A stretch of 64,000 bases of DNA from Cyanobium sp. ATX 6A2 (GTDB lineage Bacteria > Cyanobacteriota > Cyanobacteriia > PCC-6307 > Cyanobiaceae). Location: contig NZ_JAGQCU010000015.1 of assembly GCF_024346355.1 (NCBI RefSeq), positions 1-64,000 of the forward strand. The letters are read 5' to 3'. The notes beneath the pieces are model-generated. The model was not told the DNA's origin. It did no database searches and saw only the letters and a list, made by a program, of their open reading frames with translations. Positions 23,862 to 51,426 of this stretch are shown here, piece by piece; within the stretch, counting starts at the first letter, position 1; each line of letters starts with the position of its first letter. The position numbers and the translations under genes are program-made.

Positions 23862-23864
23862 GGA

Positions 23865-27573: not shown

Positions 27574-28257
27574 TCATGGCGGTGCTGGAGCCGGAAGCAT
27601 CGCGACAGCGCCCACGTACCCCTCAGGAAGGTGGAGGCGCCAATGGCGCGTCAGCTGGCAGAGGCCAGGGGGCGGTGCGGCGGCCAGACCCCAGCCTCCG
27701 GCCTTGAGTTCGGCCTCGAGCTGGCACCAGGCCTGCAGGAAGGCTGCTCGTTGTTCGGCCTGGGGCTGTTCGAGGAGGGCCTCAACCTGTTGACTCGAAA
27801 ACAGCCGGCGTGCAATCGGCTCCCAGTCCAGATCAGCCCGCTGCTTCTCCACATCAACCCCGACGGGCCGATTCGGATGCAGTGCCAGAAGAATGAGTGC
27901 TCCGGAATGGCTGATGTTGAACTGTGGTCCACCCGGACAATAGGGTTTGCCGTTGAAACCCACTTCAACAGGAACAGACGACGCGGGAGTATTCAGGACA
28001 TGCGCGAGGAGGTGGCGCAATAATCCTCGCCCCAGAAGAAAGCGATCCCGGTCACCAGTAAGGCGATACGCTGAATGCCGCTGTCGCTCCTCAGGCGAGA
28101 GAGTGGAGGCAAAGTCGGCCATAAGATCCTGCGAGACACCACTGCGTCGATCCAGACAGAAGAGAAGAGGTTCACTCGGAAAACCGATCAAGAACCGCAG
28201 GGATTCGGCAATGGAAGCGGGATGACCCGAGGTCAACATCAGAGGACTCAAATCCAT
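27574..28257 (-). CDS. 4'-phosphopantetheinyl transferase (Sfp/HetI type)
   Basis: This 227-aa enzyme attaches phosphopantetheine to carrier domains, here most likely those of the adjacent NRPS. The family blocks are GRGLLRHLLA, GKPYCPGGPQFNISHSG, VGVDVEKQ and WCQLEAELKAGG. The last is a WxxLEA version of the usual WxxKEA. The start at 28257 has a strong AGGGAGG six bases upstream; ATG 28290 lacks it. It is downstream of the last NRPS gene by 116 bp and is likely co-transcribed. Confidence 0.9.
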   Translation of the reverse strand: MDLSPLMLTSGHPASIAESLRFLIGFPSEPLLFCLDRRSGVSQDLMADFASTLSPEERQRHSAYRLTGDRDRFLLGRGLLRHLLAHVLNTPASSVPVEVGFNGKPYCPGGPQFNISHSGALILLALHPNRPVGVDVEKQRADLDWEPIARRLFSSQQVEALLEQPQAEQRAAFLQAWCQLEAELKAGGWGLAAAPPPGLCQLTRHWRLHLPEGYVGAVAMLPAPAPP

Positions 28258-28373
28258 AGATAGCCTCCCTGGCCCATATCTCCGCGGCATATCTTCAAAG
28301 ATTAATCAACGCCGGACAGGCTCCAGAAACAATCTAGAATAGGCATCCCGAGCAAGGCATAATTGATATCACG

Positions 28374-31300
28374 CTAGGACAGAACAATGGCTTTGATCGT
28401 GTCTGCCAAGCCTCGAAGATTGGACGACTGAAAGAAAGCGCCATGCACCCCAGGGATAAATGACACCGAATGCGATCCGCGCCCAAACGACCGCCTGAGC
28501 GATCGCCGAATAATCTCTTCAGGCAACTGGCGAGAAGCAATTGATGCAGTGCCCTGCTCATCGATCTCTCCAGAAGGAGCGCGGAAGGGATTCTGAAAAC
28601 TGTCAGTGCCGTAAAGAATCACCGTACCTTTACTCCAACACAAAACCCGCTGTTGAATCAGCCACATCGAGGGCTCCATCAGGATAAGCGTTCTTACACT
28701 CCTGCCATGGGCGACCAAGTGCCAAGCAATAGCATTGGCAATAATGCCCGCCTGGCAATTACCACCGATCACAAATGGCTCAATTGATGGCTGAATCTCG
28801 AGAATCTCTCGTGCGTACAAGCCAGCCACCTCATACAGAAGAGCAGGGTCAAAATAAATTTGGCGAGCGTTGTCAAGTTCATGGGCAGACCTCATGCCAT
28901 GCACACGCACTGCCCCCATCAATGCCCCAGCAAGACCCTCAAACTCATCAGCTCCCTGAAAACACCAGAACAAACTTGGAAGGGACGATTCACTGCCAAT
29001 CGTCCGGATAAACTGGTGACCTGGTGCAAGCAGTCCAGGCCAATGCGCAAGCATTGTCAACTGCTGTTCTACAAACTGATGCACCTGAGCTGGACCTACA
29101 AGTCGCTCCAGACCGGGCCGCTCCGACTCGTGCCATGAATACTCCAAGCCCTTGGAGCCATTAGCTTTTTGAAGAAACTCCGAGAACGCATTAATTGTTG
29201 GGAAAGAAAAATACCGCGCAACGGGTACCTGCACACCCAATGCCGCATCTACGATTTCCTTCAGCTGCATGGTAAGGAGCGAATGCCCCCCAACCGCAAA
29301 GAAGTTGTCGGTGATTCCGAACTCCCCGTGCCCCAGCACCTCCGTCCAGATCTCGTGCAACATCCGCTCAAGCTCCGTCGTCGGCTCCACCCGACGCTCC
29401 AGATCACCCGCGAACGACGGCTCCGGCAGAGCCTTTCGGTCCAGCTTGCCGTTGCTCGTCAGCGGCAGTGACTTCAGTTCAAACAGTGCCGCAGGCACCA
29501 TGTACTCCGGCAGCCGCTCGGCCAGAAAGCTCCGCAGCTCCTCCCCCGATACCTGGGCTGCTGCCTTGCCAACCCAGTAGCCAATCAGCCTCGGATTGGA
29601 AGGATCGTCCTGCCGCATCACCACCACCGCCTGCGACACGCCAGGGTGCGCCAGCAGGTTCGCCTCGATCTCGCCCGGCTCGATCCGGAAGCCGCGCAGC
29701 TTGATCTGCTCATCCATCCGCCCGTGGAAGGCCAGCGTCCCGTCGGGGTTCCAGCTCGCCAGATCTCCCGACTTGTACAACCGAGCAGTGGGATCAGATG
29801 AGAACGGATCCGGGATGAACTTCTCTGCCGTCAGCTCGGGCTGATTCAGATACCCACGCGCCAGTCCCGCTCCGCCGATGTGCAGTTCGCCAGGCACTCC
29901 GATCGGGCAGGGGTGACCAAAGTCGTCGAGGACTTGCACCGCCGTCATGGCGATGGGCCGGCCCAGCGGCACCCCCCAAGGCTCCTCCAGCAGTTCGCCT
30001 GCACCCAGGCTCTTGCACGAGGTGAAGGTCGTGTTCTCGGTAGGGCCGTAACCGTTGATCAGCTCATGGCCAGGCGGGAAAGCTCCGAGCAGACGTCGCA
30101 CATGCTCAACGGAAAGCACGTCTCCACCCGCCAGCACCTGCCGCACACCGGCCAGGGCCGCCAGTTGGCTGTCCACCATCGCGTTAAACAGGCCTGCGGT
30201 GAGCCAGAGGGTGGTGATCCCCTTGGCTGTCAGCAGCTCAGCCAGCTCAGGCAGGGCCACCTTCCCCGCTGGCGCAACCACAAGCGTGCCGCCATTCAGC
30301 AACGGACCCCAGATCTCGAAGGTGGCGGCATCGAACGCCACCGGCGCCAGCTGCAGCACCGCACTGCCGGCCCCAAACTGGAATCCATTCACCGGATCCA
30401 CCAGCCGCAGAATGGAGCGGTGCTCGATTGCCACACCCTTGGGAGTCCCGGTGGAACCGGAGGTGTAGGTGACATAGGCCAGTGGACGCATGGATGCGGC
30501 AGCGGCGGGTGGAAGGGGAGCGTTGATGACGGCTAGTCCCTCTTGGTTGATCAGAACCTGGCCGCCTGCCTCTTTCAGCAACAGCTGCCGCCGGGCATCC
30601 GGCCACTCCGGATCCAGCGGCAGGTATGCCCCACCCGCCTTCAGGACCGCCAGCAGCGACACGATCAGCTCCACCGATCGCTCCAGGCACACCCCCACGA
30701 TCACCTCAGGGCCCACTCCCAGTTCCCGCAGGTGATGCGCCAGCTGGTTCGCTCGCCCATTCAGCTCGGCATAGCTCAGCTCCTGGTCCTCAAACACCAG
30801 CGCCGTCGCCTCCGGTGTTCGCTCCACCTGCTGCTCGAACAGCTGGTGCACGCACACCTCCGGCACCTCGATCCGCGGGCCCTCCTGCCAGCTCTCGATC
30901 AGCTCGCGCTCGGCCTCAGGCAGCAGATTCAGCGTCTCTGCGGCCGCATCGGGTGTCTGCAGCGCCGAGCTGAGCAGCGTGATCAGATGCCGGCTCAGAC
31001 GTTCGATCCGTTCCCCATCGAACAGATCCCTCGCGTAAACGAGATTTCCCTGGATCCCACCATCCTTTCTCCTGCGCAGGAAGAACTCCAGATCAAAGCG
31101 TGAGGCCGCCGCCGCCGCCGAAAGCGACTCCACCTCCAGGTCCGCGAAGTTCTGCAGAGTCGACCCCGGCAGCTCCATCAGCTGCACCATCACCTGCACC
31201 AGCGGGTTCCGGCTCGTGTCCCGCTCCACCTCCAGCGCCTCCACCATCTGCTCGAACGGCAGCTCCTGGTGCTCATACGCTCCAATCGACCGCTCCCTCA

Positions 31301-32246
31301 CCTGGGCCAGCAGCTCCCGGAAGCTCTGGCCAGCCGCAAAACGGGTACGCACCGGCAGCGTGTTGATGAAAAACCCGATCAGCGCCTCCAGATCCGAGTG
31401 GTTCCTCCCCCAGATCGGCACCCCGATCGCCACATCCTCCTGCCGGCTGTAGCGGTGCAGCAGCAGCGCCACCACCGCCACCAGACCCATCTGCAGCGTC
31501 GCTCCCTCCCTCCGGCACAGCTCCTCAAACGGTCCCAGCAGCTCCGCACCGATCGCGAACGACACGCTCCCGCCACGGTGCGACGGCATCGCCGGACGGC
31601 CGCGGTCCCCCGGCAGCTCCAGGGGCTCCAGACCCTCCAGCTCACCGGACCAATACTGCGTCAGCTTCCGCAGACGCTCGCCGCTCAGGCGCTGCCGCTG
31701 CCACGCCGCGTAGTCCTGGTACTGCACCCGAAGCGGCGCCAGCTCGGGGCTTCGGCCCGTGCAATGCGCGTTGTACAGCTCCGTCAGATCGCGGGCAAGA
31801 ACAGATTGCGACCACCCGTCCGAGGCGATGTGGTGGTGGTTCACCAGCAGCACATGCTCGTCGGCAGTCACCTGGAGCAATCGTGCGCGGAGCAGCACTC
31901 CGGAGGTCAGATCAAAGGGCGTGCTGCGCTCCTCCTCCAGCCACTCCTCGATCACTGCCTCTGAATTGCGCTCTCCCAGCTCCTCGGTTGCCAGAACAAA
32001 GGCCCCCGGCGGATGGATGATCTGCAGCACCTCGCTCCCCTGCAGCCGGAACGACGTGCGCAACGTCGCATGACGCTCGATCAGACCCCCCAGCGCACGC
32101 TCCAGTGCCCGCATATCCAGAGCACCACGCAACCGCCACAGCCTTGGCATGTGATAAGCGGTGAGCCCTGGCTCCAGCTGCTGCAGAAACCACAGCCGGC
32201 TCTGTGCATACGACGCCGGAAAGGCCTGCACCTGCACTGCTGTCAT
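28374..32246 (-). CDS. NRPS termination module: C-A-T-TE
   Basis: This 1290-aa protein has C (1-440, HHIASDG with His138/His139), A (about 455-960, YTSGSTGTPKG, NGYGPTE, K in LTSNGKLDRKALP), T (FFAVGGHSLL near 1010) and TE (about 1085-1290). Aligning A by eye gives the code D-A-F-W-L-G-G-T-F-K, close to known valine codes. The TE nucleophile is Cys1164 (GGNCQAG) instead of Ser, with His1268 (GVHGAFF) as the probable catalytic His. The start overlaps the upstream NRPS stop (ATGA). It would add the last residue (Val-like) and release the product. Confidence 0.93.
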   Translation of the reverse strand: MTAVQVQAFPASYAQSRLWFLQQLEPGLTAYHMPRLWRLRGALDMRALERALGGLIERHATLRTSFRLQGSEVLQIIHPPGAFVLATEELGERNSEAVIEEWLEEERSTPFDLTSGVLLRARLLQVTADEHVLLVNHHHIASDGWSQSVLARDLTELYNAHCTGRSPELAPLRVQYQDYAAWQRQRLSGERLRKLTQYWSGELEGLEPLELPGDRGRPAMPSHRGGSVSFAIGAELLGPFEELCRREGATLQMGLVAVVALLLHRYSRQEDVAIGVPIWGRNHSDLEALIGFFINTLPVRTRFAAGQSFRELLAQVRERSIGAYEHQELPFEQMVEALEVERDTSRNPLVQVMVQLMELPGSTLQNFADLEVESLSAAAAASRFDLEFFLRRRKDGGIQGNLVYARDLFDGERIERLSRHLITLLSSALQTPDAAAETLNLLPEAERELIESWQEGPRIEVPEVCVHQLFEQQVERTPEATALVFEDQELSYAELNGRANQLAHHLRELGVGPEVIVGVCLERSVELIVSLLAVLKAGGAYLPLDPEWPDARRQLLLKEAGGQVLINQEGLAVINAPLPPAAAASMRPLAYVTYTSGSTGTPKGVAIEHRSILRLVDPVNGFQFGAGSAVLQLAPVAFDAATFEIWGPLLNGGTLVVAPAGKVALPELAELLTAKGITTLWLTAGLFNAMVDSQLAALAGVRQVLAGGDVLSVEHVRRLLGAFPPGHELINGYGPTENTTFTSCKSLGAGELLEEPWGVPLGRPIAMTAVQVLDDFGHPCPIGVPGELHIGGAGLARGYLNQPELTAEKFIPDPFSSDPTARLYKSGDLASWNPDGTLAFHGRMDEQIKLRGFRIEPGEIEANLLAHPGVSQAVVVMRQDDPSNPRLIGYWVGKAAAQVSGEELRSFLAERLPEYMVPAALFELKSLPLTSNGKLDRKALPEPSFAGDLERRVEPTTELERMLHEIWTEVLGHGEFGITDNFFAVGGHSLLTMQLKEIVDAALGVQVPVARYFSFPTINAFSEFLQKANGSKGLEYSWHESERPGLERLVGPAQVHQFVEQQLTMLAHWPGLLAPGHQFIRTIGSESSLPSLFWCFQGADEFEGLAGALMGAVRVHGMRSAHELDNARQIYFDPALLYEVAGLYAREILEIQPSIEPFVIGGNCQAGIIANAIAWHLVAHGRSVRTLILMEPSMWLIQQRVLCWSKGTVILYGTDSFQNPFRAPSGEIDEQGTASIASRQLPEEIIRRSLRRSFGRGSHSVSFIPGVHGAFFQSSNLRGLADTIKAIVLS
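30600..32200 (-). repeat. Long near-identical segment, copy A (C domain and A N-terminal part)
   Basis: This segment of the last NRPS module matches 33810-35420 at very high similarity in both DNA and protein (for example the LRVQYQDYAAWQRQRLSGERLRKLTQYW block). It points to recent module duplication or gene conversion and is a likely site of recombination or assembly collapse. Confidence 0.75.
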
Positions 32247-35200
32247 GGGAGCTCGAACGGGATGGGCGTGGCCATGGGGATGGCAGTGGCTGGTTCATTC
32301 CCCTCAGTACTCCAGTCTGCAGATTCCACCAAGGCAGCCAGACCCGCAATCGTGGGGCTCTGGAAGACCGCCGCCAGCGACGGCCCGCGGCCGAACGCCT
32401 GCTCGATCCGCGTCACCAGGCGCACCGCCGCCAGCGAATGCCCCCCGACCGCAAAGAAGTTGTCCGTGATCCCGAACTCTCCGTGCCCCAGCACCTCCGT
32501 CCAGATCCCGTACAGCGTCCGCTCCAGCTCGCTCGTCGGCTCCACACGCCGCTCCAGATCACCCGCGAACGACGGCTCCGGCAGCGCCTTGCGGTTCAGC
32601 TTGCCGTTGCTCGTCAGCGGCAGGCTCTCCAGTTCCACAAACCCCGCCGGCACCATGTACTCCGGCAGCCGCTCGGCCAGGAAGCTCCGCAGCTTCTCGG
32701 CGCTGTCTGCTCCGGCAGCACCTTTTTCGGGAACCCAGTAGGCGATCAGACGCGGGTTGGACGGATCGTCCTGCCGCAGCACCACCACCGCCTGCGACAC
32801 AGCCGGATGCTCCAGCAGGTTCGCCTCGATCTCGCCCGGTTCGATCCGGAATCCACGCAGCTTGATCTGCTGATCAATCCGCCCGTGGAACGCCAGTGTC
32901 CCGTCTGGATTCCAGCTCGCCAGATCTCCCGATTTATACAGCCGAGCTGCCGGATCTGATGACAAAGGATCCGGGATGAACTTCTCCGCCGTCAGCTCGG
33001 GTTGATTCAGATACCCGCGCGCCAATCCCGCTCCGCCAATGTGCAGCTCGCCGGGGACACCAATAGGGCAGGATCTCAGCGCCCCATCAAGAATCAGGAT
33101 CGTTGTATTATGCAGCGGCCTGCCAATCGAGATTGCGGCAGAATCCCGGACTCGCTCATAGCTGATTCCGGCGCACCCAGGGGCTTCCGTTGTTCCATAC
33201 AGATGCAGAAGGCTGACGCCCTGCTTTTCGCAAAGCCGAGCTGCAAGGGAAGGCTTTAGCGATTCTCCGATCGCTATCAGCCTGGAAGAATTCAGCCCGT
33301 GCAGTCCACAACTGACCAGCTCCTCCCAGTGACTTGGTGTCGCCTGGATACGCGTGATGCGCCTGTCAGAGACCAGCATGGCCAGCCCGCCAGGAGACAT
33401 TCTCTGTGATTCAGATGCCAGAATTGCGACGCATCCCTTGGTGAGAGGGAAAATAGTTTCCCGAAGGGATATGTCAAATCCAAAGGAACTAAGCCCCAAT
33501 ATGGCCTCCGATCCCGTCAGCCCCCATTCCCTGCATACGGAAAGGCATTTCAGCGTAGCCACTCGGTGGGTGATTTCGATCCCTTTCGGCGTACCGGTCG
33601 ACCCCGACGTAAAAATGACGTAAGCCAGTCCACCTACGCTTTCTGGCCTTGACTGCAGATTGTCGGCAGACTTTATCCAGACTGCATCTGAAGCCACACC
33701 GATGAAGCAAATAGTGCCGCCCTCTAAAGCCATCCTGGCTTCATTCTTGCTTCCAATCATGTATTGACAGCTCGCTTGATTCAAGACAAGCCCGGTGCGG
33801 CTCTCTGGCCACTCCGGATCCAGCGGCAGGTAAGCCCCACCAGCCTTCAAAATCGCCAGCAGCGACACGATCAGCTCCACCGATCGCTCCAGGCACACCC
33901 CAACAATCACCTCAGGGCCCACTCCCAGATCCCTCAGGTGATGGGCCAGCTGGTTCGCACGCGCATTCAGTTCGGCATAGCTCAGTTCCTGGTCCTCAAA
34001 CACCAGCGCCGTCGCCTCCGGCGTGCGCTCCACCTGTTGCTCGAACAGCTGGTGCACGCACACCTCGGGCAGCTCGATCCGCGGGCCCTCCTGCCAGCTC
34101 TCGATCAGCTCGCGCTCCGCCTCAGGCAGCAGATTCAGCGCCTCTGCGGCCGCATCGGGGGTCTGCAGTGCCGACCTCAGCAACGTCTGCAGATGCCGGC
34201 TCAGACGCTCGATCCGTTCCCCATCGAACAGATCCCTTGCATAGGCGATCGAACCCCTCAGGCCCCCATCGGCACCGCGGCGCAGATAGAACGACAGATC
34301 CAGCTTCGACGATTCACTCTTGGTCGGCAGGCTCTCCACCTCCAGATCCTCACAGTTCTGCAGCGTCGACTCCGGCAGCTCCATCAGCTGCACCATCACC
34401 TGCACCAGCGGGTTCCGGCTCGTGTCCCGCTCCACATTCAGCGCCTCCACCATCTGCTCGAACGGCAGCTCCTGGTGCTCATACGCTCCGATCGACCGCT
34501 CCCTCACCTGCGCCAGCAGCTCACGGAAGCTCTGGCCGGCCGCAAAACGGGTACGCACCGGCAAAGTGTTGATGAAAAACCCCATCAACAGCTCCAGATC
34601 AGGGTGATTCCGACCCCAGATCGGTACACCGATCGCAAAATCATCCTGCCGGCTGTAGCGGTGCAGCAGCAGCGCCACCACCGCCAGGAGCCCCATCTGC
34701 AGCGTTGCCCCCTCCCTCCGGCACAGCTCCTCAAAGAGCTGCAGCAGCTCCGCACCGATCTCGAACGACACGCTCCCGCCACGGTGTGAAGGCATCGCCG
34801 GTCGGGCACGATCCCCAGGCAGCTCCAGAGGCTCGAGGCCCTCGAGCTCCCCGATCCAATACTGCGTCAGCTTCCGCAGACGCTCGCCGCTCAGGCGCTG
34901 CCGTTGCCAGGCCGCGTAGTCCTGGTACTGCACACGCAGCGGCGCCAGCCGTGGCTCCCGGTTCCCGTGCTGGGCGTTGTATAGCTCCGTCAGATCACGG
35001 GCAAGAACAGAGCGCGACCAGCCGTCCGAGGCGATGTGGTGGTGGTTCACCAGCAGCACATGCTCCTCAGCTGTCACCTGCAGCAGTCGTGCACGCAGCA
35101 ACATTCCGGAGCTCAGATCAAATGGGGTGCGGCGGTCCTCCTCCAGCCACTCCTCGATCACCTCCTCCCCATCCCGCTCTCCCAGCTCCTCCACCGCCAG

Positions 35201-38400: not shown

Positions 38401-38835
38401 CTCCAGCCAGCCCTTGATGACCTCCTCCGCATTCCGACCGCCCAAGGTGTCGGCTGTCAGGGGGAAAGCAACGGAAGGGTGAAGGATCTGCAAGACCTTT
38501 CCTTGCTCCAGCCGGAAAGAGGTGCACAAGGTGGGATGGCGCTCGCTCAGCGCGACGAGAGCCGCATGCAGGGCCTGAACATCCAGCTCACCCCGCAGCC
38601 GCCACAGGGCTGGCATGTGGTATGTCGTCAGCTCCGGCTGCAGCTGCTGCAAAAGCCACAACCGGCTCTGGGCAAAGGAGGCCTGATAGGCCTGGCAGCC
38701 CGCCGGCCAGTCACCTGCCAGAGGCTCCGCGGCGGGAATGACAGGAGTCGCCGCCGATCGCCCGGGAGCGGCAGACACGAACGAGGCCAGCCGCCGGAGG
38801 CGTTCCAGCCGGGAAGACTGAGAGGAACCGCTCAT
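35443..38835 (-). CDS. NRPS extension module: C-A-T (first in line)
   Basis: This 1130-aa protein has an N-terminal linker (about 1-45) that may dock to an upstream carrier. A C domain (NHHHIASDGW), A (VYTSGSAGAPKG, TYGPTE) and T (FFQIGGHSLAA) follow. The by-eye A code is D-M-R-S-F-S-T-I-Y-K, unassigned. It shares an Arg at the third code position with the next module (FDMTLR versus FDISLR). ATG 38835 overlaps the upstream lyase-like stop (ATGA), which supports this start over 38973. Its C domain would accept the starter acyl group. Confidence 0.92.
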   Translation of the reverse strand: MSGSSQSSRLERLRRLASFVSAAPGRSAATPVIPAAEPLAGDWPAGCQAYQASFAQSRLWLLQQLQPELTTYHMPALWRLRGELDVQALHAALVALSERHPTLCTSFRLEQGKVLQILHPSVAFPLTADTLGGRNAEEVIKGWLEEERSTPFDLASGVLLRARLLAVDDQEHVLLLNHHHIASDGWSLSVLHRDLIELYNAHHSNRSPQLPPLTVHYQDYAAWQRERLGGQRLQQLKDYWMPQLIGLQPLELPWDHTRPASPSYVGGRVSFRIEAELLRPFEELCRTEGATLQMGLLALVALLLHRYSRQDDFAIGVPIWGRNHPDLEPLIGFFINTLPIRTRFQREQSFRELLRQVKDTSVQAYEHEELPFEQMVEALQMERDTSRNPLVQVILQLMELPDASLQGMEGLQVEQLAAKGTASKVDLSFQLCRTADQGLQGTVSYTSDLFEAERIERLTTHLQTLLASLLEAPDAPAGSMNLMPEAERQLIESWQQGPEIEVPDLCLHELFEQQVERTPDAIALIFQVPRRSQPTSSHNSQQDLQNDIELTYADLNIWANVLSWKLIDCGAGPGDIVALELSRPHHWIVATLACLKAGSAFLAIDSAWPVSRKNLVSDDASPRLRVVDDDQAEDRIGILAMPLYPSLPAASAPSGRNPSIPVDRNQLAYVVYTSGSAGAPKGVLIEHGGLLLRGQDLLLRWDLGLDRRVLCNGSFSFDMTLRTTLIPLAAGASVVVATLDECQDPRCLIGLIHRAGCDRLSMSSSQWQAVFDAGFVPSIPTHAFASAEPLTADLAGKFPLTQGHRLTHTYGPTETTIYSTTHDISVGQQAKLAPIGVPLPETVTRVLDGSGHPCPIGIPGELHIGGKGLARGYLNNPELTAEKFIPDPFSSDPVARLYKSGDLASWNPDGTLAFHGRIDHQIKLRGFRIEPGEIEVNLLEHPGVSQAVVVLRQDDPVNPRLIGYWVGEATTPSSPSATSEQLRSFLAKRLPDYMVPSAFVQLEALPLTSNGKLDRRALPAPSFASDSQQRVEPASELERTLHGIWVEVLGHEEFGITDNFFQIGGHSLAAARLVSRIEQTFGRALALAAVFQHPTIAGLVALPDRGEWVAEKLDQATAIQIAAPIQLDLP

Positions 38836-39683
38836 GGCCACAGTGAATCCTTGAGCACCTCCTGGCACTCGCTGAGCGACACCCCATGCCTGAGGCTGTC
38901 GGAGAAGGGCAACTGCTCCTCGGTCAAACTCATCAGCTGCTGTTCGATTGCCCGCTGGGCGGCGAACAGACACGGGGTGCTATAGAGGAGTAGGTTGAGA
39001 CCCAGCCGGCCCAGGGTTTCACGATCGCAGGGTGGAGTGCGGCCACCGCCGATCACGTTGGCCACTACTGAGCAGCGCACCGAAGATCGGATCGCTGCAA
39101 GCAGATCGAGATCATCCAGCCCATCGGCAAGAACCGCGTCGCAGCCCTCGGCTTCGAAGGCACGGACGCGCCTGAGGATCTCCTCAGGGTCGGTGGCGTC
39201 GGTGCGTGCCACGACGACGAGACTATCACGTGCGTCAAGGACCGCTCGAAGCTTCAGCAGATACTCCTCCAGCGGCAGAATCTCCTTGCCGTGAAGATGC
39301 CCGCAGCGACGGGGGCGGCGCTGATCCTCGAGCACGATCCCCGACGCTCCTGCCCGTTCCACCGCATGCGCCACGTGAGCCGCCATCGTGGCGTCACCGA
39401 AGCCATCGTCGAGGTCCACCAGCAGATGGTGGTGGGGAAAGGCATGGCGGAGCCTGTGCACGAAGGTGAGTAGATCACTCCAGGCCATGAAACCCACATC
39501 GGGAAGGCCATAGGTACTGGCTGCCAACCCGAAGCCACTGACGAAGAGGGTGTCGAACCGGGACGCAGCCAGCCGGGCGCTGAATAGGTCGTAGATGCCG
39601 ATGAACGGAACTGGACGGACCACATTGGCGGCCTGATCATTTGCAGCCAGCAGCTGACGCAGAACAGATCCTGGTGTTTTCAT
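38832..39683 (-). CDS. Isocitrate lyase/PEP mutase superfamily enzyme
   Basis: This 283-aa TIM-barrel enzyme has VDLDDGFGDATMAAH (Mg-binding Asp), IVLEDQRRPRRCGHLHGKE (the catalytic Cys block of the C-C lyase branch) and VARTDA. The RCGH Cys argues for a lyase (methylisocitrate-lyase or oxalacetase-like) rather than PEP mutase, whose equivalent block lacks it. It is coupled to NRPS-1 (ATGA) and lies 12 bp after the free C domain, so it probably makes or trims a precursor acid. The substrate is unknown. Confidence 0.85.
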   Translation of the reverse strand: MKTPGSVLRQLLAANDQAANVVRPVPFIGIYDLFSARLAASRFDTLFVSGFGLAASTYGLPDVGFMAWSDLLTFVHRLRHAFPHHHLLVDLDDGFGDATMAAHVAHAVERAGASGIVLEDQRRPRRCGHLHGKEILPLEEYLLKLRAVLDARDSLVVVARTDATDPEEILRRVRAFEAEGCDAVLADGLDDLDLLAAIRSSVRCSVVANVIGGGRTPPCDRETLGRLGLNLLLYSTPCLFAAQRAIEQQLMSLTEEQLPFSDSLRHGVSLSECQEVLKDSLWP

Positions 39684-39695: not shown

Positions 39696-41087
39696 TCAGG
39701 CATTGGTGACCACCAGACCGCGGTCTGGGCCATCAAGCAAACCGCCAAGAAGAGCTTTCATTCTTTCGAATAGAACGTCGATACCTTGCTCGGAAAAGCG
39801 ATCCGTTGAGTAGATGATCTTGACCTGAAGAGAACCGCCAGGAAGGTGACGAAAGCGAAATTCCAGTTCATGGCGAGCCCGCTGGGATGGGGAAGGGAGC
39901 CTCCGAACGGCAAGCCTCTGAAGGGCGGGCCGCCAGGGCAGATCCATGAGCTGAACCACCACAGGGACACAGGCATGGGGAGGCTGCCGCGGCCAGAGGG
40001 CATCTTCCAGAATCGCGTAGGGGAGATCCTGATGGTCGTAGGCCTGCAGGCAAGAGCTGCGAACCCGACCCAGAAGAGTCCGAAAGGATGGAGCCCTAGA
40101 CAGATGAATACGGATGACAAGAAGGTTGACGAACGACCCCATCAGACTCTCCAGAGAAGGATGGCGGCGTCCGGCCACCGGGATGCCGATGCCGATGTCC
40201 TCCTGACCGCCATGGGTGTGGAGCAGCGCCGCGACCAGGGCGAGAAGCCCCATGGAGAGGGTGACTGCGGCACTGCTGCAGAGATTCGCCAGCCCCGCCA
40301 CAAGCGATGGCGCCAACTGGAAGTAGCTGGAGCGGCCACGGTACGTGAGTTGGGGCTGCGCCGGGTGGTCGGCCGGGAGGATGATGCTGGGAAGGTGATT
40401 GAGGACCATTCGCCAATGCCTCAGAAGGGTGTCGCGATCCCTTGGGGCGAGGCTCCTCCGTTGCCAGCGAGCGAAGTCGACATAGCGGAGCGGCAGCTTT
40501 GGCAGCGGACTGCCCGCACCCTCCAGAGCCGCGGCATACAGAACCGCCAGCTCCCGGTAGAGGACGGTTCGGGACCAGCCATCAAAGACGCTGTAGTGGA
40601 AGACGAGCAACAGCACGTGCTCTCCCTGACGGCACTGGAGGAGCAGAGCGCGCATCAGCGGTCCGTGGTCGAGATCGAAGGGGCGCTCAAGCTCCTGCTG
40701 CATCCTTGCCGTGAGCTCTTCCGAGCCTGCGCTGTGTCGCAGCGTTTCCACCTGCAGATCCACGCCTTGGGCCGGGGCCACGATCTGCATGAGGTCCTCA
40801 CCGCCGGGCTGGTATGTGGTGCGCAGAGGTTCATGGCGCTCGACCAGACGTTCCAGAGCCAGCTTCAGCGCCGCCGGTTGGAGCTCTCCCTGCAGATGCA
40901 GGGCGTCAGGGATGGCACAAGCCGTGCCATCGCTGTACTGGTCGAGGCGCCAGAAGCGGAGTTGGGTGAACGAGGCCGCGAACGCCGGGTGACCGTGCGG
41001 CGCGGGAAAGCCCAGAGGGCTGGCAGGAGGCAGGGGGCTCGGGGCGAGCTTACGGAGCCGCTGCAGGCGTGAGCGTTCAGGGGCCAT
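39696..41087 (-). CDS. Free-standing condensation domain with altered active site
   Basis: This 463-aa protein is one C domain with a short N-terminal linker. The HHxxxDG motif reads HYSVFDG (His164, Tyr165, Asp169), so the second, catalytic His is replaced by Tyr. The rest of the fold is conserved (RFWRLDQYSDG, FARWQRRSLAPRD, YRGRSSYFQL, GIGIPVAGRRHPSLESLMGSF). It may be a non-catalytic partner or a C domain with different chemistry. Its ATG overlaps the ligase-carrier stop by 11 bp. A vestige of a second copy lies at 47791-47886. Confidence 0.88.
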   Translation of the reverse strand: MAPERSRLQRLRKLAPSPLPPASPLGFPAPHGHPAFAASFTQLRFWRLDQYSDGTACAIPDALHLQGELQPAALKLALERLVERHEPLRTTYQPGGEDLMQIVAPAQGVDLQVETLRHSAGSEELTARMQQELERPFDLDHGPLMRALLLQCRQGEHVLLLVFHYSVFDGWSRTVLYRELAVLYAAALEGAGSPLPKLPLRYVDFARWQRRSLAPRDRDTLLRHWRMVLNHLPSIILPADHPAQPQLTYRGRSSYFQLAPSLVAGLANLCSSAAVTLSMGLLALVAALLHTHGGQEDIGIGIPVAGRRHPSLESLMGSFVNLLVIRIHLSRAPSFRTLLGRVRSSCLQAYDHQDLPYAILEDALWPRQPPHACVPVVVQLMDLPWRPALQRLAVRRLPSPSQRARHELEFRFRHLPGGSLQVKIIYSTDRFSEQGIDVLFERMKALLGGLLDGPDRGLVVTNA

Positions 41088-42894
41088 GCTGCCCTTCCTC
41101 CATGGCAGCGAGGGCATGGTCGATCCGCTCCTCCAGCTCAGCCGCCAGCATCCGGAGCGTGGGGTAGCGGAACAGGAGAGTGGCCGGCAGGTCAAGCGGA
41201 ATCTCGCTGTTGAGGCGGGAGATCACCTGCTGACCTGTGAGCGAATCACCGCCCAAGGCGAAGAAGTTGCTCGCGCGCGACGGCACAGGGATGCCCAGCA
41301 CGGCAGCGAAGATCTGCCCCACCAACTCCTCCACCTCTCCCTGAGGCGGCTCCTCCATCGGAGAGAGGAGATTGTCCAGCTTCGCGGCCAGGCCGATCCG
41401 CTGGAACTTTCCTGTCGGGCCCTTCGGCACCTCATCGACCGTCACAATCCGACTCGGCACCTGATGAGGAGCCAGGCGGGCAAAGCAGTGGACACGAAGG
41501 TCCTCTTCAGAGGCAAGCGCACCCGCTCGAAGAACAACGACAGCTGCCACGTCCTCGCCAAGGGTGGGATGGGGCACGGAGAAGCAGAGGGCCTGCTCCA
41601 CGGCGGGGTGCTCCATCAACGCCTCATCAACCTGCCGGGGAATCACCTTCTCCCCGCCGCGATTGATCATCTCCTTGAGGCGGCCTGTGAGCCGTAGAAC
41701 ACCATCGTGATCCAACGATCCCTCGTCTCCGGTGAGGAACCAGCGTTCTCCGCTGGGGCTCACAACCCATCCGGATTCCGTACCTTCGTACCCAGTTGTG
41801 ACGTTCTCTCCGTTGATCGAGACTTCCCCGTAGGTACCGGGGGGAAGCGGATGAAAGGCCTCATCGAGAATGGCCACTTGGGGCCCCGCCGAACGGCCAA
41901 CGCTGCCATAATATCGTAGAGAAGGCGGCAGACGGTTGCTACAGATTAGTGAAGCAGTCTCTGTCATTCCATAGGCCTCAATCACGGGAACGCGGAAGGT
42001 TACCTCAAGGGCTTGCTGCAGCGATGGCGACAGGGCAGCTGAAGCGGAGCGAAGGAATCTCAAGGCGGGGACTGTCATGTCATGGCGATTATCTGATTTC
42101 TGCTCAGATAAAACCGATCTTAGGAGCGCCTGAAGAAGGGTAGGACTGGCAGACATCCATGTGGGAGCGCGGCAGAAGAATCTCTCGACAAGGCTCGGCA
42201 AGAGTGCGTTGGCAGGGAACAAAATCTTGCCTCTGCTCACGAGAGGAGCGAGAAGACATGTAACAATGCCATGAATATGGAAGAAAGGCATAGCCACAAG
42301 ACAGCAGTCGTCGGGCCCGAGGTTCAGTACCTCAGCTGTGCCCGCAGCCGCAACTAGCAGGTTGGCATGGGTGAGGGGCACCACTTTGGGACGGGAAGTG
42401 GTGCCTGAAGTCTGCAGCACGAGGCAGGGTGATGTGCAAAGAGCATAGTCTTCAACTTGATTGTACAAGCCACTATTAGAAACACCCTGGCATGCGACGA
42501 ATCGACTCGAATCGAGGAGGGGCAGTCCTATGCCCTGAACGACACGATCCAGGCGAGGTGGAGCAAGTCCGGCAATGAGTACGGCACGAACATGCATTCT
42601 CTCGAGTTCCTCTCGGAGGGCGTCCTCGTTGAGGCTTGGGTCCACCGGTGCGGCCACTGCTGCTGCCATTGCGGCAAGTAGGGCGACAGCGGTATCCCGG
42701 CCATGAGTACCCCACACAGCCACTCGGTGCTCCCTAGATACACCGGCCTCTCGAAGACCTTGGATCACAGCATCGACGGCACCCGCCAACTCTGCAGAAC
42801 TGAGGGTCCCCTCCGCTCCGAAAAAGACTGTCTGATCGGGGTGACTGAGGGCTGCGTCTCTGAGCAGGTCCCTAATCGTGGCGGGATGCCTCAA
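41077..42894 (-). CDS. Acyl-AMP ligase with C-terminal carrier domain (copy 1)
   Basis: This 605-aa protein has an acyl-CoA-synthetase-type adenylation domain (LQTSGTTSRPKVVP, PFFHIHGIV, EAYGMTE, TGDEGSLDHDG, RLKEMINRGGEK, PTGKFQR) fused to a carrier domain (FFALGGDSLTGQQ near 550). It lacks the NRPS FDxxx amino-acid pocket and resembles oxalate/short-acid-CoA ligases, so a carboxylic acid is expected. It likely loads the starter unit for the following C domains. The A core is AT-richer than its 3' part. It lies 19 bp after the VOC gene. Confidence 0.9.
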   Translation of the reverse strand: MRHPATIRDLLRDAALSHPDQTVFFGAEGTLSSAELAGAVDAVIQGLREAGVSREHRVAVWGTHGRDTAVALLAAMAAAVAAPVDPSLNEDALREELERMHVRAVLIAGLAPPRLDRVVQGIGLPLLDSSRFVACQGVSNSGLYNQVEDYALCTSPCLVLQTSGTTSRPKVVPLTHANLLVAAAGTAEVLNLGPDDCCLVAMPFFHIHGIVTCLLAPLVSRGKILFPANALLPSLVERFFCRAPTWMSASPTLLQALLRSVLSEQKSDNRHDMTVPALRFLRSASAALSPSLQQALEVTFRVPVIEAYGMTETASLICSNRLPPSLRYYGSVGRSAGPQVAILDEAFHPLPPGTYGEVSINGENVTTGYEGTESGWVVSPSGERWFLTGDEGSLDHDGVLRLTGRLKEMINRGGEKVIPRQVDEALMEHPAVEQALCFSVPHPTLGEDVAAVVVLRAGALASEEDLRVHCFARLAPHQVPSRIVTVDEVPKGPTGKFQRIGLAAKLDNLLSPMEEPPQGEVEELVGQIFAAVLGIPVPSRASNFFALGGDSLTGQQVISRLNSEIPLDLPATLLFRYPTLRMLAAELEERIDHALAAMEEGQHGP

Positions 42895-47790: not shown

Positions 47791-47886
47791 TCAGCTCCGG
47801 TGTGGATCACCAAGCTGTTCTGCTGACGAATGTGATTTGACACAACACCGGCGGAGCTGCACAAGACGTGAGCGCTCAGGGGCCAT
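47791..47886 (-). pseudogene. Vestigial start of a second free condensation-domain gene
   Basis: The reading frame begins MAPERSRL, the same first eight residues as the free C domain at 41087 (MAPERSRL). It starts at the same position relative to its ligase-carrier neighbour (11-bp overlap). After about 23 bases the DNA similarity is lost and the frame stops after 31 codons. This shows that the ligase-carrier plus C pair was duplicated as a unit and the second C gene was then lost. Confidence 0.65.
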
Positions 47887-49696
47887 GCTCCTCCTCCAGA
47901 GCAGCCAGGGCATGGTCGATCCGCTCCTCGAGCTCAGCCGCCAGCGTCTTGGGCGTGGGGAAGCGGAACAGGAGGGTGGCGGGCAAGTCGAGCGGAATCT
48001 GGGTGTTGAGCCTGGAGATCACCTGCTGACCCGTGAGGGAATCGCCCCCCAGGGCGAAGAAGTTGCTCGTGCGCGACGGCAGTGGAACCCGCAGCACGGC
48101 AGCGAAGATCTCCCCCACCAACTCCTCCACCTCTCCCTCAAGCGGCTCCTCCAGCGGCGCCAGCAGGGCGCTCAGCCTCTCGGCCAAACCGATCCGCTGC
48201 AGCTTGCCTGTGGGTCCCTTCGGCAGCTCATCGGTCAGCAGGACCCGGCTGGGCACCTGATGGGGGGCCAGCCGGGCGAAGCAGTGGCCCCGCAGTTCGT
48301 CTTCGGAGGCGGACCCAGGGGATCCCAGGACCACGGCGGCAACCACGTCCTCTCCGAGACTGGGATGGGGCACGGCAAAGCACACGGCCTGCTCAACGGC
48401 GGGGTGCTCCAGCAGGGCCTCATCGACCTGGCGGGGGATCACCTTCTCCCCGCCCCGGTTGATCATCTCCTTGAGGCGACCTGTGAGCCGGAGCACACCG
48501 TGGCGATCCAACGATCCCTCGTCTCCGGTGAGGAACCAGCGGGACCCATCCGGGCTGGTGACCCAGCCATCGCCCGCCGTCTCGAGATAGCCCGCCGTGA
48601 CGTTGACGCCACGGATGGCAACCTCACCCACGTCCCCGGCAGGCAGCTGTTGGTGATTGGGCCCGAGCACGGCCACCTGCGGCCCGGCCGCGAAGCCGAC
48701 ACTGCCGGACAGGCGCAAGACCGGGGGGAGGCGGTTGCTGCAGATCTGGTGGGCCGCTTCGGTCATGCCGTAGGCCTCGATCACCGGCACACCGAACATC
48801 AATTCCAGCCGTTGCGCGAGCGCAGGGGCCAGCGGCGCCGAGGACGAACGGATCAGGCGCAGTGCATGCCCCGGCCCAGCAGTGCCCTCCGGCCCGCAGG
48901 CTCTCACCAGGCCCTGCAGAAGCGTGGGCACAGCCGACAGCCAGGTGGCCTGAGACCTTCGGATCAGCTCGAGCAGCTCAGCCCCGGGGAGCGGCTCGCT
49001 GCAGATCACGCTGCCACCGGAGAGCAGGGGGGCGAGCAGGCCGGCAACGATGCCATGGATGTGGAACAGCGGCATCACCGCAAGGCTGCGATCCACCGGC
49101 TTCAGTTGCAGCACCTCAGCCACATGGCCGGCAGAGGCCAGAAGATTCGCGTGGGAGAGGGGCACCACCTTCGGCCTCGAGGTGGTGCCGGAGGTCTGCA
49201 GCAGCAGGGCCAGATCCGAGGGCTGGGGTGCAGACAGGAAAGGCTGCGGCAAAGAGGTCGCCTCACCGCTTACGGGCAGGGGGGCAAGCCTGCGCACACG
49301 AAGTCCCAGCCCAGCCGCCGCCGCGAGCAGGGCCGGCGGCGGCTGGGAATCGGTGAGCACCAGGCTGACCGCCAGGCGCTGGAGGTCGTCCCGATGGGTG
49401 GATTCCGGGGCCCGGGGGTTGAGGGGAGCCGCAACGGCCTGGGTCATGGTGCCGATCAGGGCGGCCGCAGCCTGGGGGCCCGGTGCAGACACCAGAGCCA
49501 CCCGGTCCTCCCGGCCGATACCGTCCGCCTGCAGCGTCCCCCACACCTCGGACATGGCTGCGACAAGGCCAGTCCAATCGAACCTGGCTCCGGCGGGATC
49601 GAGCAGAACCGGATCTCCGGTATTCACGCGCTCACCCGCCTGCAGAAGCTCGAGCAGGGTGCGAGGAGCAGTGCCCGGAGAGGAGGAGGCGCTCAT
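47876..49696 (-). CDS. Acyl-AMP ligase with C-terminal carrier domain (copy 2)
   Basis: This 606-aa paralogue of the ligase-carrier protein at 41077-42894 has the same motifs (LQTSGTTSRPKVVP, PLFHIHGIV, EAYGMTE, RLKEMINRGGEKVIPRQVDEAL, carrier FFALGGDSLTGQQ). The C-terminal half is very close to copy 1 and the N-terminal half is much more diverged, so the two may load different acids. Its ATG overlaps the TPP-enzyme stop (ATGA). The GC-rich composition matches the host better than copy 1. Confidence 0.9.
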   Translation of the reverse strand: MSASSSPGTAPRTLLELLQAGERVNTGDPVLLDPAGARFDWTGLVAAMSEVWGTLQADGIGREDRVALVSAPGPQAAAALIGTMTQAVAAPLNPRAPESTHRDDLQRLAVSLVLTDSQPPPALLAAAAGLGLRVRRLAPLPVSGEATSLPQPFLSAPQPSDLALLLQTSGTTSRPKVVPLSHANLLASAGHVAEVLQLKPVDRSLAVMPLFHIHGIVAGLLAPLLSGGSVICSEPLPGAELLELIRRSQATWLSAVPTLLQGLVRACGPEGTAGPGHALRLIRSSSAPLAPALAQRLELMFGVPVIEAYGMTEAAHQICSNRLPPVLRLSGSVGFAAGPQVAVLGPNHQQLPAGDVGEVAIRGVNVTAGYLETAGDGWVTSPDGSRWFLTGDEGSLDRHGVLRLTGRLKEMINRGGEKVIPRQVDEALLEHPAVEQAVCFAVPHPSLGEDVVAAVVLGSPGSASEDELRGHCFARLAPHQVPSRVLLTDELPKGPTGKLQRIGLAERLSALLAPLEEPLEGEVEELVGEIFAAVLRVPLPSRTSNFFALGGDSLTGQQVISRLNTQIPLDLPATLLFRFPTPKTLAAELEERIDHALAALEEEHGP

Positions 49697-51426
49697 GCTC
49701 CGTCCGCTGCCGTGGAGGATGGGTCCACAAGCGTATTGACGAGCAGGGGCTTTCCACTGCCCAGACCCGTGGACAGGGCTTGGTGCAGATGCTCAGCCGT
49801 GCTGGCCTGGCAGGCGGGGAACCCGAGGCCAGTGGCCACCTGGTCGTAGGCGAGGGCGCTCTGGAAGGCATGCACCCTTTCCGGATGATCGGGGGGGAGC
49901 TTGGTGATCTGATTCAGCGAACCCACGGCGCCGTCGTTGTTGACGACGAGCACCACGAAGGGCAAGCGATGTCGAACGGCGGTCTCCAGTTCGATGGCGC
50001 CCATCCCGAAGGCGAAATCCCCCGTCACCAGCAGCAGCGGCCGGGTGGGGTGGTGGAGCCGGGCGGCCATGGCAAAGGGAACTCCGGTGCCCATGCAGCC
50101 ATTCCAGCCCGGATCGAGGAAGAGGAACGGGTGCTCGCGATCCAGGAAGCGGTGAGCTGCTTCGAGGGTGATCTTTCCATCGACCACAAGAAAGGCCTCG
50201 GGGGGGATGACCGCCCGGATGATCTCGAACACCTCGCGGATCGTGAGACGGGCGGCTTCTGAGGCGGATGATTCGCTCGCAGGCCGTGCATCACCAACGG
50301 GCTCGCAGGCCCGCAGCATTGCCCTCTGGGGTGCCTCAGGCGCCGGGGAGCGCTGCGCCAGACGGTTGAGGAGCAACCCGGGATCAGCTGCCCACCGCTC
50401 CCCACGCTCCGCCAGCGTGGGGGGGAGCTCCGTCACGTCGCTGACGAGAATCACGGCCGCTCCCGGATCGATCTCAGCGCCGAAGCGCAGGCGCCAGTCG
50501 AGATCAGCACCGAACAGCACCACCAGATCGGCCTGGGCCAGCACCCCGGCGCGGGATTCCGCACCATGCACGGCGAAGGGATGACTCTCCGCCAGCACGC
50601 CTCGCACCAGGGGGAAGCTCACGACCGGCAGCGACAGCCGCTCCAGCCACCCACGGACCTGTGCGAGGTCGAGTCGCCAGCGCACCCCATCGCCGAGAAT
50701 CAGAACGGGATTGCGGGCGGCCCGCAGCCGCCGAGCGAGCCCATCGACGAGCCGATCCTCGAGCGAAGGGGAGTCCCAAACCAACGGTTCGACGGGCCCC
50801 GGATCCACGATCCTTGCGCCAAGCACGTCTTCCGGCAGGTCGAGGTACACGGGGCCGGGCCGACCACAGCGTGCAGTCCGCACAGCCTCGTGGAGTAGCC
50901 GGGGAATGTCAGCTGGGGCGTGGGCACAGCCCGTCCATTTGGCGATCGGTTGGATCAGGCTGGCGGCATCAAGCTGCTGGAAGTGCCCCCTCTGCCCTCC
51001 ATGAGCGGCACGCCGACCACCGAGAACCAGGAGGGGCCAGCCGTTGTCCCGTGCCACCAGGATGCCGGTAATGGCATTGGTCACCGCCGGCCCGGGTGAG
51101 AGCACCACGGCACCGCACTGGGTTCCCGCCACAAAGGCCGCCGCGGCCGTCATCAGCGTGGCCCCCGCCTGGGTTCGGGTGCCCAGCACCCGCAGGCCCC
51201 TCGCGGCACAGGCGCTGTAGATGCCATGCACGGGCGTCCCGCCCACACCGGCGATCCACGTGAACTCCAGCGCAGCGAGAGTGCTCGCCACCAGTTCACT
51301 GCCACTCACCAGGGCAGGCTGGCATTGGCCCCTCTGCCGCAGGAGACCGAGCCGGCCCGCTCTGTCCCACCGCGGGGAACCTTCAGGATCGACAGGGGCC
51401 GTCGGTGGCTCGGGAATTGCCGTCAT
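49693..51426 (-). CDS. Thiamine-diphosphate-dependent enzyme (2-hydroxyacyl-CoA lyase / oxalyl-CoA decarboxylase-like)
   Basis: This 577-aa protein has the three domains of the acetolactate-synthase superfamily. The PYR domain reads LGTRTQAGATLM where family members have RHEQAA, so the catalytic Glu becomes Gln86. The TPP-binding motif GDFAFGMGAIELETAVRHRLPFVVLVVNN is intact, and DPGWNGCMGTGVPFAMAA is typical of the oxalyl-CoA decarboxylase branch. Coupling to ligase-carrier copy 2 suggests it acts on, or makes, the acid that ligase loads. The start is ATG 51426; GTG 51441 is possible. Confidence 0.85.
   Translation of the reverse strand: MTAIPEPPTAPVDPEGSPRWDRAGRLGLLRQRGQCQPALVSGSELVASTLAALEFTWIAGVGGTPVHGIYSACAARGLRVLGTRTQAGATLMTAAAAFVAGTQCGAVVLSPGPAVTNAITGILVARDNGWPLLVLGGRRAAHGGQRGHFQQLDAASLIQPIAKWTGCAHAPADIPRLLHEAVRTARCGRPGPVYLDLPEDVLGARIVDPGPVEPLVWDSPSLEDRLVDGLARRLRAARNPVLILGDGVRWRLDLAQVRGWLERLSLPVVSFPLVRGVLAESHPFAVHGAESRAGVLAQADLVVLFGADLDWRLRFGAEIDPGAAVILVSDVTELPPTLAERGERWAADPGLLLNRLAQRSPAPEAPQRAMLRACEPVGDARPASESSASEAARLTIREVFEIIRAVIPPEAFLVVDGKITLEAAHRFLDREHPFLFLDPGWNGCMGTGVPFAMAARLHHPTRPLLLVTGDFAFGMGAIELETAVRHRLPFVVLVVNNDGAVGSLNQITKLPPDHPERVHAFQSALAYDQVATGLGFPACQASTAEHLHQALSTGLGSGKPLLVNTLVDPSSTAADGA

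Follow-up and report, generated by a model that had tools for sequence, protein, structure and literature searches.

Results

Gene content and borders of the locus

The window, i.e. the whole stretch of 64,000 nucleotides from Cyanobium sp. ATX 6A2 that was analysed, harbors an NRPS cluster of 11 pathway genes and a gene for a 4'-phosphopantetheinyl transferase (PPTase). All of them are open frames with a family match in profile searches, and this includes every gene named in the first-pass annotation of this DNA. Eight genes, from the gene of the phosphosulfolactate synthase family (ComA) to the module carrying the probable thioesterase, share one orientation, and no overlap or gap between neighbors exceeds 19 bp; at four junctions the overlap is 4 bp. 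The genes for the acid ligase-carrier ligT_b and the TPP enzyme also overlap by 4 bp. GC content is 0.612 across 28374-51441 versus 0.713 and 0.695 in the flanks and is uneven inside the block (VOC 0.509, MaoC-A-T 0.534, ligT_b 0.692, TPP enzyme 0.682).

The block is absent from all five same-genus relatives examined (of 12 listed), since their photolyase-FabI spacing is too short to hold it. The PPTase gene (27574-28290, minus strand; Pfam AASDHPPT_N/ACPS) has a low GC content of 0.607, yet it may be a resident neighbor because three of these five relatives carry a PPTase gene at the same site; possibly, the resident enzyme serves the carriers of the cluster. The NRPS pathway itself was probably acquired horizontally. 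Comparison of the cluster with phages, an Rfam search of positions 26000-53000 and a tRNA search gave no match, and no convincing repeats were found at the cluster borders. Gene content, operon structure, protein families, pocket residues, absence from relatives and the recurrence of parts in other genomes are direct observations.

Peptide assembly genes

As proposed in the first-pass annotation, three C-A-T modules are encoded, all on the minus strand: module 3 (28374-32246), module 2 (32243-35446) and module 1 (CAT1, 35443-38835). Each has Condensation, AMP-binding and PP-binding matches, and the motifs HHHIASDG and GGHSL are present. The open frame of CAT1 is longer than the gene, which probably starts at the internal ATG at 38835. 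The adenylation code of module 3 (DAFWLGGTFK) agrees with the Val-like final residue suggested earlier, so that a Val-like end of the peptide is highly likely from the code. Modules 1 (DMRSFSTIYK) and 2 (DIRQIILGCK) have both Asp235 and Arg239; from Arg239, these modules probably load acidic or side-chain-linked amino acids. Ww423, from a genome without a ComA match, has a DMR-type code as well.

The C-terminal domain of module 3 carries the motif GGNCQAG. Its match to the Pfam thioesterase family is weak (23.3 bits, below the cut-off of 26.4), and its structure was predicted with moderate confidence (pLDDT 66) with the thioesterase domains of NocB and SulM among the best, low-scoring Foldseek hits. 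The Cys-thioesterase anticipated by the first-pass annotation is probable, and this domain would probably release the product.

The free condensation domain claimed earlier (39696-41087, minus strand; probable start at the internal ATG at 41087) was recovered with a strong Pfam match of 261 bits despite its altered motif: it reads FHYSVFDG (HYxxxDG) and lacks the second His of HHxxxDG.

The MaoC-A-T fusion (44516-47491, plus strand) was likewise recognized correctly, with a FAS1_DH(MaoC)-A-T match. Its MaoC region is predicted to adopt a double hot-dog fold (pLDDT 87.8; top Foldseek hits of MaoC type), resembling MaoC dehydratases and mesaconyl-/itaconyl-CoA hydratases. The proteins of this type from all five clusters share the code SARD[LYM]TLGTK (here SARDYTLGTK), in which Arg239 is present and the amino-binding Asp235 is absent. 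This combination suggests a dicarboxylic acid, and for a dicarboxylic acid without an alpha-amino group as substrate we see even chances. A substrate made by ComA was considered for this protein and rejected, as three of the five genomes with the code (G166, G413 and G414) have no ComA match, an absence weakened for G413 and G414 whose genome completeness is not given.

ComA and its neighbors

ComA (43309-44067, minus strand), the first gene of the eight-gene run, matches PF02679 with 246.6 bits. Its best solved match is 1u83 (240 bits), presumably a Bacillus subtilis protein, and with 200.9 it stays under the cut-off of the archaeal equivalog (280). ComA would very probably form phosphosulfolactate. 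The adjacent VOC (Glyoxalase) protein (42914-43312, minus strand) is a putative ComA partner, and His/His/Glu are conserved among three ComA-adjacent VOC proteins. A ComB-family phosphatase is encoded in the source genome outside the block; this family is common and occurs in 7 of 14 control genomes. A metagenome-assembled genome (MAG) of the Nitrospiraceae shows a ligT–ComB–ComA–VOC run on a 7.1-kb contig. Together with the genomic ComB, this run supports the PEP plus sulfite chemistry first proposed for the operon. Neither a sulfolactate dehydrogenase or aminotransferase nor ComC or ComDE is among the genes of the block.

In the phylum sample of 386 genomes, four have ComA, and in three of these no such cluster lies within the ~60 kb read around it. 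We therefore discarded ComA as a general marker of these clusters. A scan of genome contigs with ComA alone gave 43 candidate stretches and no relative. In the phylum of the Nitrospiraceae MAG, ComA is present in 23 of 395 genomes; among the 24 loci, read for ~1.5 kb on each side and in some cases cut by contig ends, VOC together with ligT was found only in this MAG. A Geminocystis plasmid encodes a VOC homolog with no ComA annotated alongside.

Acid ligase-carriers

The cluster encodes two acid ligase-carriers, ligT_a (41077-42894) and ligT_b (47876-49696), both on the minus strand. Oxalate–CoA ligases take the first four places among the PDB sequences matched by each of them (259 to 179 bits for ligT_a, with 172 for the entry that follows; 287 to 203 bits for ligT_b, followed by 171). 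Behind these, malonyl-CoA synthetases form the next class among the PDB matches of ligT_b. The pocket of ligT_b (FHIHG, RSSSA and TEAAHQ; code HGASRSAHQK) conforms to the AAE3-type pattern of FH[IV]HG, RS.S and a His at position 319 of AtAAE3. In ligT_a, this His is replaced by Ser (TETASL), and its pocket departs from the AAE3 type. We assume that the AAE3-type pocket residues contact oxalate. No paper confirming this role was found, including the available part of PMC9301600.

Among seven carrier-fused ligases, four keep the pocket His and three have lost it, while it is kept in nine of nine standalone ligases (the nine best of a longer list) and in three solved proteins; the statistic of 0.018 for this comparison ignores kinship and is a description only. 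Both ComA-linked ligTs belong to the three without His. They are not sisters, and their losses are independent. The third is Ww423, and therefore the loss is not specific to ComA. Quite likely ligT_b loads oxalate, and ligT_a may load a ComA-derived sulfonate, with a chance just short of even.

TPP enzyme and lyase

The TPP enzyme (49693-51441, minus strand) is most similar to oxalyl-CoA decarboxylases/2-hydroxyacyl-CoA lyases among PDB sequences (222 bits) and contains all three TPP-enzyme domains. At the position of the usual catalytic Glu it has Gln91, whereas all six homologs read have Glu; such a replacement is expected to cripple other TPP enzymes. We only tentatively propose that this protein acts on an oxalyl-carrier. 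Its plasmid relatives all share less than 60% identity, with 12 matches listed at 28–30%. An alternative ATG start of the gene lies at 51426.

The lyase of the ICL/PEP-mutase superfamily (38832-39683, minus strand; Pfam PEP_mutase/ICL) was compared with several equivalogs. It reaches 142.4 bits for methylisocitrate lyase (cut-off 353), 113 bits for carboxyvinyl-carboxyphosphonate phosphorylmutase (below cut-off) and 52.6 bits for PEP mutase (cut-off 319.55). With a score of about 53 bits that far below the cut-off, we rejected the reading of this protein as a PEP mutase. Of the chemistry suggested in the first-pass annotation, the ComA arm is supported and PEP mutase chemistry of this protein is not, and the kinship of both ligTs and the TPP enzyme to oxalate or oxalyl enzymes had been missed. 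The best solved match is petal death protein (128.7 bits); the second, carboxyvinyl-carboxyphosphonate phosphorylmutase (112.6 bits), counts against an oxalate reading. The lyase carries RCGH and LYS motifs. At the LYS position, Ser is shared with petal death protein, whereas Pro is found in dimethylmalate lyase and Cys in the compared methylisocitrate lyase; this Ser may be a marker of oxaloacetate acetylhydrolase/petal death protein. Its motif YSTPCLF differs from the ICL-superfamily paralogs of two other cyanobacteria. On these grounds, oxalate formation by the lyase appears evenly balanced. A separate bacterial oxalate synthase exists according to the available part of PMC5028181.

Related clusters

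Clusters that resemble this one in part are also found in distant bacteria, so that the chemistry can be tested. The comparison of cluster proteins covered 10 loci (L026-L035) of at least 80, and gene content differs between clusters. The Nitrospiraceae genome bin with the ComA run also holds ligT-C, MaoC-A-T and lyase genes; as this is a metagenome bin of unstated completeness with the parts on three contigs, their linkage is not established and misbinning is possible. In this bin, Nitrospiraceae UBA8639, the lyase homolog sits between A-T and C-A-T-TE. In another cyanobacterium (G300), a lyase homolog with 58% identity overlaps a ligT by 4 bp; the genome lacks ComA, and no MaoC or TPP gene lies within the 52 kb read. 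The arms can therefore occur apart and do not have to contribute to a single product. An Embleya locus encodes a YSTPCLF lyase alongside IucA/IucC and a siderophore-interacting protein.

Discussion

Our analysis suggests that one arm of the pathway probably makes and loads oxalate, because both ligTs are nearest to oxalate–CoA ligases, ligT_b has the corresponding pocket and overlaps the TPP gene, and the lyase scores far below the PEP mutase cut-off and has a homolog that adjoins a ligT in G300. Since ligTs and TPP enzyme are closest to oxalate or oxalyl enzymes, we rate an oxalate arm no less likely than a sulfonate arm. We infer all substrates, the order of the arms and the product from sequence. 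In the proposed route, the lyase would form oxalate, probably from oxaloacetate, and ligT_b would adenylate it and hold it as oxalyl-S-carrier, which the TPP enzyme could decarboxylate or take through a carrier-bound C–C bond step. In a further arm, ComA would join sulfite and PEP, the ComB-family phosphatase encoded elsewhere would remove the phosphate, VOC would modify the product and ligT_a would load the sulfonated acid. MaoC-A-T would load a dicarboxylic acid and hydrate or dehydrate it on its carrier. The free condensation domain and modules 1 and 2 would assemble the chain with the Val-like module 3, and the Cys-thioesterase would release it. That oxalate and sulfonate arms feed the NRPS to yield a polyanionic short acyl-peptide is plausible, though we place it slightly below an even chance. 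The wider reading of a new NRPS class in at least Cyanobacteriota and Nitrospirota, in which paralogous ligases adenylate oxalate and a PEP/sulfite-derived sulfonate, each onto its dedicated carrier, a TPP enzyme with an altered activation site performs one-carbon or C–C chemistry on an oxalyl-carrier, MaoC-A-T supplies a hydrated diacid and the product is a polyanionic, perhaps metal-binding peptide, is rather unlikely in its entirety.

Other readings have to be weighed; they are not mutually exclusive, and their probabilities need not add up to one. The first-pass annotation had favored a sulfonated or PEP-derived acyl tripeptide. On this reading, the product would contain no oxalate, the sulfite route would be the main precursor route, and both ligTs, lyase and TPP enzyme (e.g. 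as sulfopyruvate decarboxylase) would serve it. ComA indeed heads the eight-gene run, the ComB family is present in the genome and the ligT–ComB–ComA–VOC run exists elsewhere. However, G300 pairs lyase and ligT without a ComA match, the oxalate-type pocket of ligT_b is unaltered and the TPP enzyme resembles oxalyl/hydroxyacyl enzymes, so that we consider this reading improbable. We give a similarly poor chance to a route in which ComA supplies cysteate, with sulfopyruvate as intermediate and an aminotransferase of the housekeeping type, and in which module 1 or 2 loads cysteate via Arg239 while ligT_a loads something else. Both modules keep Asp235, have Arg239 and share the gene run with ComA, but the DMR-type code recurs in Ww423 in the absence of a ComA match and the Nitrospiraceae 7.1-kb contig has ComA beside a ligT and no such module.

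The substitutions in the free condensation domain (HYxxxDG), the TPP enzyme (Glu to Gln) and ligT_a (His to Ser) could reflect new chemistry or decay. If these proteins lost catalytic residues, the cluster would be a mosaic in partial decay making a simpler acyl-Val-type peptide, which would also agree with the variable gene content among clusters. Against this, the frames are open and mostly coupled by overlaps, and the His loss of ligT_a is paralleled independently in another ComA-linked ligT; overall, decay seems unlikely. It is also of low probability that the small acid used by lyase and ligTs is a different one (e.g. a malonate or an alpha-keto acid) and that the likeness to oxalate ligases is ancestry only. 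Malonyl-CoA synthetases as next class for ligT_b and the YSTPCLF lyase in the siderophore-type locus of Embleya, where another acid may form, fit this idea, whereas the pocket residues of ligT_b match those of the oxalate ligases in the alignment.

The oxalate arm resembles CoA-dependent oxalate catabolism in plants, where the AAE3 oxalyl-CoA synthetase is followed by oxalyl-CoA decarboxylase (available part of PMC8004701), in that the ligase and TPP enzyme families lie side by side here. Unlike in the plant system as described there, the ligase is carrier-fused, duplicated and part of an NRPS cluster, and the TPP enzyme has Gln for the catalytic Glu. The lyase has its best solved match and the Ser in common with the petal death protein/oxaloacetate acetylhydrolase branch but differs from it by its own YSTPCLF motif and its linkage to NRPS or siderophore genes.

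The ComA/ComB route to sulfolactate serves coenzyme M synthesis in methanogens and provides spore sulfolactate in Bacillus. Here, both families are likewise present in the genome, and one Nitrospiraceae MAG contig carries them together with genes for VOC and a ligase-carrier; in contrast to the known route, ComA is coupled to an acid ligase-carrier and an NRPS, with no ComC or ComDE in the block. The thioesterase of SulM, the sulfazecin synthetase, uses a Cys nucleophile, and the module 3 domain resembles those of SulM and NocB in its thioesterase-like predicted fold, at low structural scores, and in the Cys at the nucleophile elbow. MaoC shares the predicted double hot-dog fold with the mesaconyl-/itaconyl-CoA hydratases MeaC (8hgn) and PaIch (8huc) but is fused to A-T in an NRPS and only 9–13% identical. 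Microcystin synthetase domains that take side-chain-linked Glu or MeAsp carry Arg at 239, as do modules 1 and 2 and MaoC-A-T, while the remaining code positions differ; we found no paper on these Arg239 codes.

To our knowledge, neither carrier-bound oxalate nor sulfite-derived acyl units are among the known NRPS building blocks, and our full-text literature search recognized no paper on an oxalyl-NRPS or a sulfolactate-nonribosomal pathway. If the proposed pathway is true, two related ligase pairs, oxalate-type and ComA-linked, become available for comparison, and the conserved adenylation code SARD[LYM]TLGTK and the TPP enzyme without catalytic Glu can each be tested with a single purified protein.

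Results and discussion

The candidate NRPS cluster of Cyanobium sp. ATX 6A2 (about 28374-51441) lies on contig 7 of a 3.0 Mb genome. All genes named by the first-pass annotation could be recovered: every gene of the block is an open frame and matched its own family in profile searches of the window. ComA, the VOC gene, ligase-carrier ligT_a, a free condensation (C) domain, an ICL/PEP-mutase-superfamily protein (hereafter lyase) and the modules CAT1, CAT2 and CAT3-TE form a single minus-strand run in which no overlap or gap exceeds 19 bp. The MaoC-A-T gene is divergent to this eight-gene run, and a TPP enzyme (49693..51441, minus strand) and a second ligase-carrier, ligT_b, form another minus-strand pair. 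LigT_b, the TPP enzyme and the lyase would make up a proposed oxalate arm, and ComA, VOC and ligT_a a proposed sulfite arm. NRPS, ComA/ComB, oxalate ligase, OXC-like, ICL-superfamily and MaoC families are each known. As far as our search of the open-licence PMC literature reaches, their combination on carriers is undescribed, and none of the papers listed there could be seen to treat oxalyl or phosphosulfolactate/sulfolactate units in NRPS.

LigT_a (41077..42894, minus strand) and ligT_b (47876..49696, minus strand) share 59% identity, and oxalate–CoA ligases are the first matches of both among solved structures. Using the GrsA ruler, we read the pocket code HGASRSAHQK in ligT_b. The code is identical in the ligT of G300, a genome of the same family but another genus, and similar in G206 (HGATRSAHQK) and in ligT-C, a Nitrospiraceae ligase-carrier fused to a C domain (HGGTRSAHQK). 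The pocket positions align with H214, H216, S289 and H319 of AtAAE3 (numbered along the solved chain), some of which presumably contact oxalate, and were kept in all nine standalone cyanobacterial ligases read, the best nine of a longer list. Upstream of the G300 ligT, a short frame (offsets 23578-24003 of the joined stretch) retains only a ligT C-terminal end and an intact-looking carrier domain. In G206 (L152:9347-14076), a ligase-T with an oxalate-type pocket is fused to a thioesterase whose elbow has Cys (GECVGG); a sulfotransferase and a DegT aminotransferase come next.

Among solved structures, the TPP enzyme is nearest to oxalyl-CoA decarboxylase/2-hydroxyacyl-CoA lyase; it carries Gln91 where 6/6 homologs read have Glu. 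AAE3 followed by OXC is reported as an oxalate route in Arabidopsis (PMC8004701). The lyase (38832..39683, minus strand) reached no NCBIfam cut-off; its nearest solved structure is petal death protein, followed by carboxyvinyl-carboxyphosphonate phosphorylmutase. Its YSTPCLF motif recurs in Nitrospiraceae, Embleya, Streptomyces, Kitasatospora and G300 and is absent from the lyase paralogs of the cyanobacteria S06 and UBA2566. In Embleya sp. NBC_00896 (L021:10063-21758), such a lyase belongs to a siderophore-like locus with genes for IucA/IucC, a siderophore-interacting protein, an ATP-grasp protein and DUF364 (heavy-metal chelation).

The MaoC part was matched in 7/292 genomes of the cyanobacterial sample, strongly only in its own and in G166. 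A genome-contig scan with this part kept 80 of 567 relatives, seven of which share 43–47% identity with it. Four of these (L027–L030, from UBA2566, S06, the gammaproteobacterium Ww423 and Nitrospiraceae UBA8639) are MaoC-A-T NRPS proteins; L026, L031 and L032 have no fused A-T. All five A domains, including that of the window, carry the code SARD[LYM]TLGTK, in which Arg239 is present and the amino group-binding Asp235 is absent. The modelled MaoC fold (pLDDT 87.8) matches MaoC dehydratases and mesaconyl-CoA and itaconyl-CoA hydratases. In the simplest reading, MaoC-A-T would load a dicarboxylic acid and hydrate or dehydrate it in its carrier-bound form.

The A domains of modules 1 and 2 have both Asp235 and Arg239, which, by analogy with microcystin synthetase, would fit acidic residues joined via the side chain. 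Module 3 has the code DAFWLGGTFK, the same as in S06, Nitrospiraceae and G300; it is Val-like by comparison with known codes, in agreement with the Val-like end residue proposed earlier. The thioesterase elbow contains Cys in the window (GGNCQAG), S06 (GGYCFGG) and G206, and Ser in G300, UBA2566 and Nitrospiraceae. The domain order of Nitrospiraceae ligT-C matches ligT_a–free C of the window. However, its C motif is HHxxxDG whereas the free C has HYxxxDG, and the latter may therefore be inactive or altered.

The first-pass assignment of ComA holds, with a clear match to both the family profile and a solved structure. A ComB-family phosphatase is present in the genome outside the block; this family is common, being found in 7/14 control genomes. 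A 7.1-kb contig of Nitrospiraceae UBA8639, a metagenome bin whose contigs L030, L124/L125 and L158 are united by bin assignment alone, encodes, in this order and on one strand, ligT, ComB (139.7 bits), ComA and VOC, the last two at 45% and 58% identity, respectively. A beta-eliminating lyase (L158:793-2178) faces the ComA–VOC genes of this bin. The pocket His is gone from both ComA-linked ligTs, being Ser in ligT_a and, in translation, Pro in the UBA8639 protein. These losses are independent, since the tree groups ligT_a, ligT_b and the G300 ligT at 100/100 and places the UBA8639 ligT outside. His loss is suggestive of a changed acid but does not prove a sulfonate; the Ww423 ligT has Thr at this position in a genome without a ComA match.

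Of three further cyanobacterial ComA loci, one has ComA–VOC with neither ligT nor NRPS. In G352 (L005:5334-13403) it adjoins Mrp/Mnh-antiporter-type subunits, an ion channel, a solute-binding protein and a dicarboxylate symporter, with no NRPS in the stretches read around it. In five genomes of the Nitrospiraceae phylum (L160, L165, L167, L168, L170), a distant ComA adjoins an ICL-superfamily gene with 31-38% identity to the lyase; judged by eye, a PrpD-like frame is also near in L165, L167 and L168 and a citrate-synthase-like frame in L170.

The strongest rival explanation is partial decay of the cluster, because three catalytic-looking residues differ. Two observations argue against decay: the frames are open and coupled, and the His loss is paralleled in the second ComA-linked ligT. 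A purely sulfonate pathway is disfavoured, because G300 has the lyase–ligT pair in a genome with no ComA match. The two G300 genes share a 4-bp overlap and precede NRPS genes; the 52 kb read there contain no MaoC, TPP or free-standing C. The ligTs might also act on other acids. These explanations overlap, so that our estimates for them do not sum to one.

The GC content of the block is 0.612 compared to 0.70–0.71 outside; unlike this average, ligT_b (0.69) and TPP (0.68) are close to the genome level. In each of the five same-genus relatives read, out of 12, only about 0.1 to 2.7 kb separates photolyase from FabI, leaving no room for the block, and a PPTase (27574..28290, minus strand, in the window) is present at this site in three of them. 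Thus, the NRPS block was probably inserted here beside or together with a PPTase. In the window the cluster lies between photolyase/PPTase and FabI (27503-51613), and the related G300 cluster lies on the opposite side of FabI (L149:2720-3634), from which the FabI neighbourhood is a possible insertion hot spot.
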